Source of the DNA: Planctomycetota bacterium
GTDB taxonomy: Bacteria; Planctomycetota; UBA1135; UBA2386
Assembly (NCBI GenBank): GCA_003235605.1
Contig: QJVU01000115.1
Coordinates: 1-6,050, forward strand
Direction: 5' to 3'
DNA length: 6,050 nucleotides
The position numbers and the translations under genes were made by a program. This document shows positions 1,769-2,773 of this stretch, piece by piece (positions within the stretch are counted from its first letter, which is position 1; each line of letters begins with the position of its first letter). The notes under the pieces were generated by a model. It saw nothing but the letters and a program-made list of their open reading frames with translations. It did no database searches and was not told the DNA's origin.

Positions 1769-2773
1769 ATGGTTTCGCGTTGCTTCGGGGTCCCGCTTGT
1801 CGCACTTCTTGCCGCGGCCGCCGGCGCACAGAAACCGGCACAGAAACCGGCGACGCTCGCGGCCATCAGACAGAGCCACGCGCTGGAGCTTGCCAGGCTG
1901 AGTGACTCCTGTGTGGAGAACAAGCTCCTCAACGACGCCGGGCGGCTGCTGGGCAGTGCCCTGCGCCTTGCTCCCGAGGATGACAGCCTCCTGCAGCGTC
2001 GGGAGCAGCTTCGCCAGGTGTGGATCAGCATCAACCAGGCTGGCGAGAAGCGAGAGGCCTACAAGAGCTTCTGGCAGTCCGGTGCCTACAAGAACGCCTG
2101 CGCGGATCTGGCGAAGCGCGAGCTGAAGGTGCGCAGCGAAGCCATCCAGGGCTACCTCGACTTCGCCGCTCGCGTTGGCAAGACCGATGCCACGGCAACG
2201 GACGGAGCCTTCAAGCTGGCGTTTGAGGTCGACCCCGCCAGCCAGGCACTGGCGTCCGCCGCAGGGACAGAACGCATGGCGATGTTCCGCCACCGGCGCC
2301 CAGGCCTTGCTGCCCTGCAGTTGGGCGAGACCGTGGTCGGCACGCCCACGGACCTGAGGAAGCTCAAGGGGAAGGTGGTGCTCTGGCGCTCGTTTTCGCT
2401 TTGAGGCGCTTGAACGCGGCGCTGGCCGCCGTTTGCCGGTCTGGCAGACAAGTATCGCAAGAAGCCCTTCCACATCCTCATGGCGAACCCCTTCCGGATG
2501 AACGACAGCGTCTTTCCCAAGACGGTCAAGGCGGCGGCCGCAAAAGGAGTTGCCAAGAGGGAGAACCTCACCTTCCACCGGCAGACCATCCATCCTCTGG
2601 TCGACAAGCAAGCGCCCGTCATGACGCCCGGGTGGAATGTGAGCAACGGCGAGATCACCGCAAACGGGCGGGCGGCCTGCTACGTGCTCTTCGACAAGGA
2701 CGGCCGGCTGGTGTTCCAGGGGCGTCTCACATTCGAGGAAGTGGAAGCCAGGGTCGCCCGGCTGTTGCGATAG
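1769..2773 (+). CDS. Exported thioredoxin-fold selenoprotein with a UxxU (double selenocysteine) motif; TGA 2402 and TGA 2411 read as Sec
   Basis: One continuous 334-residue frame if two in-frame TGA codons are decoded as selenocysteine (Sec212, Sec215); it ends at TAG 2771-2773. Residues 1-20 are a signal peptide (basic start, VPLVALLAAAA core, AGA-Q cleavage), so the protein is exported; C5 is not in a lipobox. Residues 28-175 are helical and charged, possibly TPR-like. A thioredoxin/TlpA-like domain follows: LKGKVVLWRSFSL at 199-211 matches the strand before the redox motif, then U-G-A-U at 212-215 in place of CxxC, and P220 at +5 from the second Sec, as Pro40 is to Cys35 in E. coli thioredoxin. 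FAGLADKY continues the active-site helix. YVLFDKDGRLVFQG at 305-318 is the late beta hairpin; A303-C304 replace the usual cis-Pro-Thr. A SECIS-like hairpin follows the TGAs. The likely role is a thiol/diselenide oxidoreductase outside the cytoplasm; the partner is unknown. The alternative, a pseudogene with two nonsense mutations, explains neither the spacing nor the hairpin. Confidence 0.9.
1827..1850 (+). repeat. 12-nt tandem duplication in the selenoprotein gene
   Basis: CACAGAAACCGG occurs twice in succession (1827-1838, 1839-1850), coding AQKP-AQKP at the signal peptidase site. It is in frame and lengthens only the linker after cleavage. Confidence 0.7.
2402..2413 (+). other. Two selenocysteine codons (TGA-GGC-GCT-TGA) forming the UxxU motif
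   Basis: TGA at 2402-2404 and TGA at 2411-2413 are the only in-frame stops between ATG 1769 and TAG 2771. They are separated by Gly-Ala, giving U-G-A-U, the exact spacing of a CxxC redox pair. The frame is the same before, between and after them, so no frameshift is needed. Confidence 0.88.
2414..2432 (+). promoter_or_regulatory. First hairpin after the Sec codons (possible SECIS for TGA 2402)
   Basis: ACGCGGCGCTGGCCGCCGT folds into a 7-bp stem (A2414-T2432, C2415-G2431, then G2416-C2420 with G2425-C2429) with C2430 bulged and a GCTG loop at 2421-2424. The loop begins 16 bases after the first TGA, the short end of the usual bacterial SECIS spacing. It starts immediately after the second TGA, so it could not serve that one. 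It shares two bases with the next hairpin. Confidence 0.45.
2431..2449 (+). promoter_or_regulatory. Bacterial SECIS element (GGUCU apical loop)
   Basis: GTTTGCCGGTCTGGCAGAC pairs 2431-2437 with 2443-2449 (seven pairs, one of them T-G wobble) around the loop GGTCT at 2438-2442. The E. coli fdhF SECIS has the same GGUCU loop, whose G and U contact SelB. The surrounding TTGCxGGTCTG also matches it, placing a T just before the upper stem, where fdhF has its bulged U. The loop begins 24 bases after the second TGA and 33 after the first, both inside the range seen in bacterial SECIS elements (about 16-37). It lies within the coding sequence (PFAGLAD), as bacterial SECIS elements do. Confidence 0.82.

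Follow-up and report, generated by a model that had tools for sequence, protein, structure and literature searches.

Does a reading frame broken solely by two TGA codons encode one selenoprotein, or is it a decayed gene or a pair of adjacent genes? The question is raised by positions 1769−2773 (plus strand) of the window, i.e. the whole 6,050-nucleotide stretch of Planctomycetota DNA analysed here. A single frame of 334 codons leads from ATG at 1769 to TAG at 2771−2773. Its internal stops are two plus-strand TGA codons only, at 2402−2404 and 2411−2413, which confirms the claim of a preliminary description that these are the sole breaks of a 334-residue frame. The two TGAs lie three codons apart in the sequence GKVVLWRSFSL-U-G-A-U-TRRWPPF. 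The UxxU pattern is therefore present as codons, whereas selenocysteine (Sec) is predicted, at residues 212 and 215.

Coding signal across the TGA codons

Frame and codon use had also been described as running on across the TGAs, and coding statistics agree. With the five neighbouring genes as reference, mean codon log-odds in the gene frame are 0.166 before the TGAs, 0.208 after them and 0.219 in 2414−2479, the 66 bases that separate the second TGA from the ATG (2480) of the second ORF; values of the gene frame exceed those of the five alternative frames over the same bases. GC3 is likewise similar on either side (0.81 before, 0.84 after and 0.82 in 2414−2479), one minus-strand frame being equally high. 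We also considered a minus-strand ORF at 989−2611. Its log-odds over 1769−2611 are −0.006, and it looks like a shadow of the gene.

Relatives are split into two halves at the same residue

To collect homologs, we searched 5.8 billion proteins with the joined 334-residue sequence, scoring 7993 candidates and accepting relatives of 0.55−1.75 times the query length at E ≤ 1e−3. Seven matches were obtained, one of which is the window's own first half. The six others (P0003−P0008) are N-half homologs of 196−223 residues, with E-values from 1e−88 to 2e−68 and 61−75% identity to the window protein over aligned positions; identity among all seven N-half sequences is 61−79%. All six non-self homologs end at GKVVLWRSFSL, that is, at the residue directly preceding UGA212. 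When the last 97 residues served as the query, 21 candidates were scored and 17 matched, again including the window's own. The 16 non-self C-half homologs are separate ORFs of 61−105 residues, 51−84% identical to the window sequence and 48−89% (median 74%) to each other. Thirteen of the 16 start with MAN, MLAN or LAN, and P0022, P0023 and P0025 start later. Two of the 22 relatives, P0007 and P0013, are assigned to MAGs of Planctomycetota bacterium; the remaining entries are nameless or annotated as 'hypothetical protein'. Splitting by automatic annotation had been predicted, and the 22 non-self fragment entries (six N-half, 16 C-half) are what that prediction describes. The longest source contig is of the same length for P0003 and P0012 (11503 bases) and for P0004 and P0011 (1651 bases), and each of these pairs probably represents one gene.

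For conservation counts the N and C halves were aligned separately. Among the seven N-half sequences (window included), 85 of 211 columns are invariant. The final 11 columns before U212 are all invariant (7/7), forming the longest such run in the alignment, compared with 74 of the 200 preceding columns, and none of 20000 column shuffles reproduced such a final run. The natural end of a protein is seldom its most conserved part, whereas the active-site strand frequently is. Judged from the alignments, selection appears to act on both halves, and the same break recurs. That the relatives' stop at 212 is UGA, and that any of them has a further UGA at 215, is inferred from protein ends only; the second TGA of the window is not visible in the relatives. 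Two pattern scans of genome contigs (10 and 38 matched stretches) and two of viral contigs (45 and 6 matched stretches) yielded no stretch encoding a relative, and tblastn against plasmids and phages found none; the scan patterns were short and conserved, and absence from those collections is not proof.

Unbroken homologs, with Cys or any other residue at the break, were not found at E ≤ 1e−3 among the 7993 candidates (lengths 0.55−1.75 × 334). When residues 184−334 served as the word source, 411 candidates were scored and just two passed E ≤ 1, both of them N-half fragments (P0002 and P0007). These searches need shared 5-residue words, and the joined-sequence search scored only the candidates with most shared words, so that distant homologs (by our estimate, below about 40% identity) could escape them. 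Within such limits the family looks Sec-only; bacterial selenoproteins usually, though not necessarily, have homologs with Cys in place of Sec. Close relatives with ordinary residues at the TGA positions, which had been named among the findings that would speak against Sec, were looked for within the same limits and none came to light.

Domain architecture and predicted fold

The protein opens with a predicted Sec-type signal peptide (residues 1−20, 1769−1828, plus strand; MVSRCFGVPLVALLAAAAGA followed by Q), recognized by eye from a basic residue, a hydrophobic core and AGA ahead of the cleavage point. The pattern is kept in relatives, e.g. ALLATAASA followed by Q, and by this visual judgement the signal peptide of the preliminary description is borne out. 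The structural model likewise agrees with the long helical N-terminal domain proposed there: residues 30−176 (1856−2296, plus strand) are predicted to form an all-helical domain, possibly TPR-like, with pLDDT block means of 69−95 over residues 31−170.

Residues 184−334 (2318−2770, plus strand) likely form a thioredoxin-like (redoxin/ResA/GPx-like) domain. With TGA translated as Cys, the best Pfam match is Redoxin (PF08534), at 23.6 bits below its cut-off of 26.6 and partly circular, CxxC being what the profile weighs; for PF00578 the score is 13.7 bits (cut-off 26). With S, W, G, A, D, F, H, K, L, Q, R, T or Y at the TGAs, no redoxin match is obtained at E ≤ 1, and none of the fragment relatives, searched singly, matches Redoxin. 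Neither the whole protein nor residues 185−334 matched any NCBIfam family, selenoprotein models included, at E ≤ 10, a scope within which the HMMER filters discard most matches above about 0.1. In a PDB sequence search the top row, ahead of the oxidoreductases, was 4yer (E = 0.025 and 0.014), an ABC-transporter ATPase and thus unrelated. Among the oxidoreductases, U212 and U215 are aligned to both Cys residues of CxxC in 2lja (E = 0.093) and 4nmu (E = 0.16), U215 pairing with the second Cys. The helix proline P220 follows the second U by five residues, as in these two thiol-disulfide oxidoreductases, and the register of motif and proline that had been pointed out thus holds.

The model places strands at 203−208 and 234−239, a helix at 220−228, and further strands and a helix within 303−333. 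This order of elements is, in the model, that of thioredoxin, with the motif between the first strand and the helix. Structure search matches, among those listed, are mostly thiol-disulfide oxidoreductases, thioredoxins, peroxiredoxins or GPx, the thioredoxin half of the model having low pLDDT. A second model, built from another alignment, was poor (pLDDT 43) and was not used for structure search. Strand 303−308 appears in both models.

Residues 267−302, beyond the alignment to ResA/TlpA-type proteins, contain many invariant residues. His275 and Trp289-Asn290 (2633−2638, plus strand) are invariant in all 17 C-half sequences, window included, as is Cys304 (2678−2680, plus strand), a candidate third redox residue near the start of the predicted core strand 303−308. 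Cys304 lies near what we take to be the place where thioredoxins carry the cis-Pro loop facing the active site, and because of this position it could, if the model is right, trap or resolve selenium. The glutathione peroxidase tetrad includes a Trp-Asn. Correspondence of Trp289-Asn290 to that pair was considered and is not claimed, the model being weak in this part.

Candidate SECIS hairpins

A candidate bacterial SECIS hairpin is located at 2431−2449 (plus strand), 33 nt past UGA212 and 24 nt past UGA215, with a 7-bp stem, the loop GGUCU from 2438 and an energy of −8.7 kcal/mol. The bSECIS model as given in the Fig. 2 legend of PMC13188914 has a loop of 3−9 nt with G in the first two places, a stem of 4−16 bp, a spacing of 16−37 nt after UGA and an energy of −7.5 kcal/mol or below. 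The hairpin is within these limits for both UGAs. A second candidate, GCGGC-GCUG-GCCGC (2416−2429, plus strand), 16 nt after UGA212, passes the loose model for that UGA only. Among the 71 plus-strand TGAs of the window, five pass the loose form and three the strict one, the two TGAs of the gene being included each time; of the 66 on the minus strand, four pass the loose form and two the strict one. Among synonymous recodings, 728 of 10000 weighted by codon usage and 163 of 10000 drawn flat also pass the strict form, as do 45 of 1372 codon positions of neighbouring genes. Five of the seven folds computed around the UGAs (2395−2455, 2398−2440, 2402−2447, 2411−2470 and 2405−2455) lie less than one s.d. 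from their shuffles; the other two, 2411−2450 and 2428−2452, have z-scores of −2.5 and −2.3. The hairpin at 2431−2449 thus fits a SECIS role, although by itself it is weak evidence. The scan was gap-free, i.e. it allowed no bulges, and it misses the known element of fdhF; E. coli fdhF likewise has GGTCT, 18 nt past the TGA of codon 140. The Rfam scan of the window gave no SECIS match.

Genomic neighbourhood

The gene is preceded on the same strand by one encoding a CPBP/Rce1-like intramembrane protease (944−1687; PF02517, E = 2.8e−14), which ends 81 bases upstream and is possibly co-transcribed with it. Further upstream, 1−900 (minus strand) encodes a membrane protein, cut by the window start, weakly resembling dolichyl-phosphate-mannose mannosyltransferases (PF13231, below cut-off). 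Downstream are genes for a secreted-looking kelch-repeat protein (2874−4313, minus strand; PF24681, E = 2.8e−32), a cupin protein (4538−5002, minus strand; PF07883) with TGA as its stop, and an O-methyltransferase with a dimerisation domain (5172−6050, plus strand; PF00891, PF08100), cut by the window end. No tRNA genes were found in the 6-kb window.

A near-perfect hairpin at 2774−2824 directly follows the stop codon. Its energy is −44.5 kcal/mol (z = −8.6), and none of 200 shuffles was equally stable. It contains repeated GTGACGTC/GACGTCAC motifs, has no T run and is possibly a terminator; it was not among the calls of the terminator scan. Situated between two convergent genes, it may end both. 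Rfam matches at 2773−2825 score far under the gathering thresholds of their families and appear to be chance hits of miRNA families on a strong palindrome. A terminator-like site inside the gene (2377−2390) is at shuffle level.

One selenoprotein gene or another explanation

Our best explanation, which we hold with considerable confidence, is that 1769−2773 is a single gene for a selenoprotein, predicted to be exported, with a U-G-A-U active site and a probable thioredoxin-like domain. This reading, already put forward in the preliminary description, gives the best fit to the frame, the motif register, the signal-peptide-like start and the relatives. It is likely that the gene represents a new bacterial selenoprotein family whose relatives appeared in our protein searches only as broken halves. 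The recurrence of the same break in relatives, together with the lack of an unbroken homolog in the searches, argues against a pseudogene, a sequence error or two separate genes. The window by itself shows a frame with two stops, just as would be left if one or two stops, genuine or introduced by sequencing or assembly, had broken an old thioredoxin-like gene. However, six of six N-half homologs at 61−75% identity carry the identical break, both halves are conserved, most strongly at the break, and codon use is intact on either side, all of which makes decay or error highly improbable. Two proteins, an exported helical one of 211 residues and one of 97 residues from ATG 2480, are exactly what the ORF listing and the database entries contain, and the common MAN/MLAN/LAN start of 13 of the 16 C-half entries is in keeping with them. 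That start equally fits the absence of an earlier start codon. The first product would have its most conserved block at its very end, just past a predicted strand, the second would begin midway through the likely thioredoxin fold, and 2414−2479, lying outside both ORFs, has an equal coding signal. We thus regard a pair of genes as very unlikely, if slightly less so than decay or error.

The frame as such requires only that translation reads on past TGA, and an ordinary amino acid could be inserted there through read-through or a changed code, e.g. with TGA as Trp. We give this the smallest chance of all, since TGG occurs 44 times and TGA never in the 1472 codons of the five neighbouring genes, and the redoxin match appears with Cys alone out of 14 residues tried; in addition, the TGA stop of the cupin gene argues against a genome-wide change in the meaning of this codon. 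A different possibility, compatible with the selenoprotein reading, is that most family members have Sec at the first UGA alone and that UxxU of the window arose recently from UxxC. The relatives show the break at 212 and tell nothing about 215, which leaves room for such an ancestry. On the other side, no C-half entry reaches 215 with a Cys, a weak point that may reflect the lack of an early start codon there. UxxC ancestry seems to us unlikely, albeit clearly less so than the other alternatives.

Relationship to known selenoproteins and oxidoreductases

SelL shares with the window protein the UxxU motif and a Prx-like character. It occurs in aquatic animals and some bacteria and reportedly forms a diselenide; it is not known to have an exported helical N domain. 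The preliminary description had given SelL as the established example of UxxU, but it is not the sole precedent (PMC13188914, PMC2398784). In Table 1 of a 2026 review (PMC13188914), the families entered with UxxU include Prx-like thiol:disulfide oxidoreductases (PF00578), one of metal-binding proteins/putative mercuric reductases and an FmdB-like family, and UxxC is given for a redoxin family (PF08534); in passages of PMC2398784, UxxU is assigned to the 'Prx-like 2' proteins of GOS. UxxU Prx-like proteins are thus already known in prokaryotes, and what is new here is a variant rather than a new kind. With PF00578 selenoproteins, for which the review's table allows UxxU, the window protein would have in common a thioredoxin-like fold, predicted in its case, and a prokaryotic origin. 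It differs in its subthreshold score (13.7 bits), an additional N domain, predicted to be helical and about 150 residues long, and the lack of a Cys form in our searches. PF08534, whose selenoprotein is listed in that table with UxxC, is its best Pfam match, although the score is below the cut-off and UGA occupies both motif positions. By analogy, the protein would work like Prx-like/redoxin selenoproteins. Membership in either family is not claimed because it scores below both Pfam cut-offs and lacks an NCBIfam match.

ResA/TlpA-type exported oxidoreductases (4nmu, 1su9, 2lja) resemble the window protein in the place of the motif and the helix proline, and they provide the best-ranked fold rows. 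Unlike the window protein, they have CxxC, and they resemble it only weakly in sequence (E = 0.093 for 2lja and 0.16 for 4nmu), in an alignment that does not span residues 267−302. Mainly open-access literature was searched for a published description of the family, and none appeared among the matches listed, judged by titles and abstract openings. As to the phylum, sections of PMC4807772 report Sec genes in some Planctomycetes and none in another.

Proposed mechanism and implications

The mechanism that we infer, from Sec insertion (and a second Sec in the relatives) through export and fold to diselenide and substrate, would run as follows. Translation would start at ATG 1769, and with the hairpin at 2431−2449 SelB would be able to bring Sec-tRNA to the two UGAs, which would be read as selenocysteine and give the U-G-A-U active site. 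The signal peptide would direct the protein across the inner membrane. There, the two selenols would alternate between the diselenol and the diselenide state, or one of them would form a selenenyl-sulfide with invariant Cys304, and the protein would act as a periplasmic thiol/disulfide or peroxide reductase. Judged from the predicted fold, its most likely substrate is a peroxide or a disulfide, and the helical N domain probably serves to dock a partner. Going further, we lean somewhat towards the view that this is a Planctomycetota-specific exported family which is solely double-Sec: an obligate-diselenide UxxU enzyme with invariant Cys304 and the Trp-Asn pair around the motif, of which no Cys version evolved or survived.

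Homology-based discovery of selenoproteins leans on Cys/Sec pairs. For instance, deep-Sep, as described in PMC12013277, retains a candidate only when a Sec homolog is known or when two or more Cys homologs are among the top ten matches. Since no Cys homolog was found for the present family, a pipeline of this type would drop it. If the double-Sec-only reading is true, the family would be a periplasmic diselenide enzyme invisible to Cys-based selenoprotein finders. If the selenoprotein itself is confirmed, searching for conserved fragment pairs cut at one residue could reveal more Sec-only families. Confirmation would also mean that a phylum sampled poorly so far gains an exported redox family with two Sec residues, and diselenide chemistry outside the cytoplasm could then be studied in a bacterial system.
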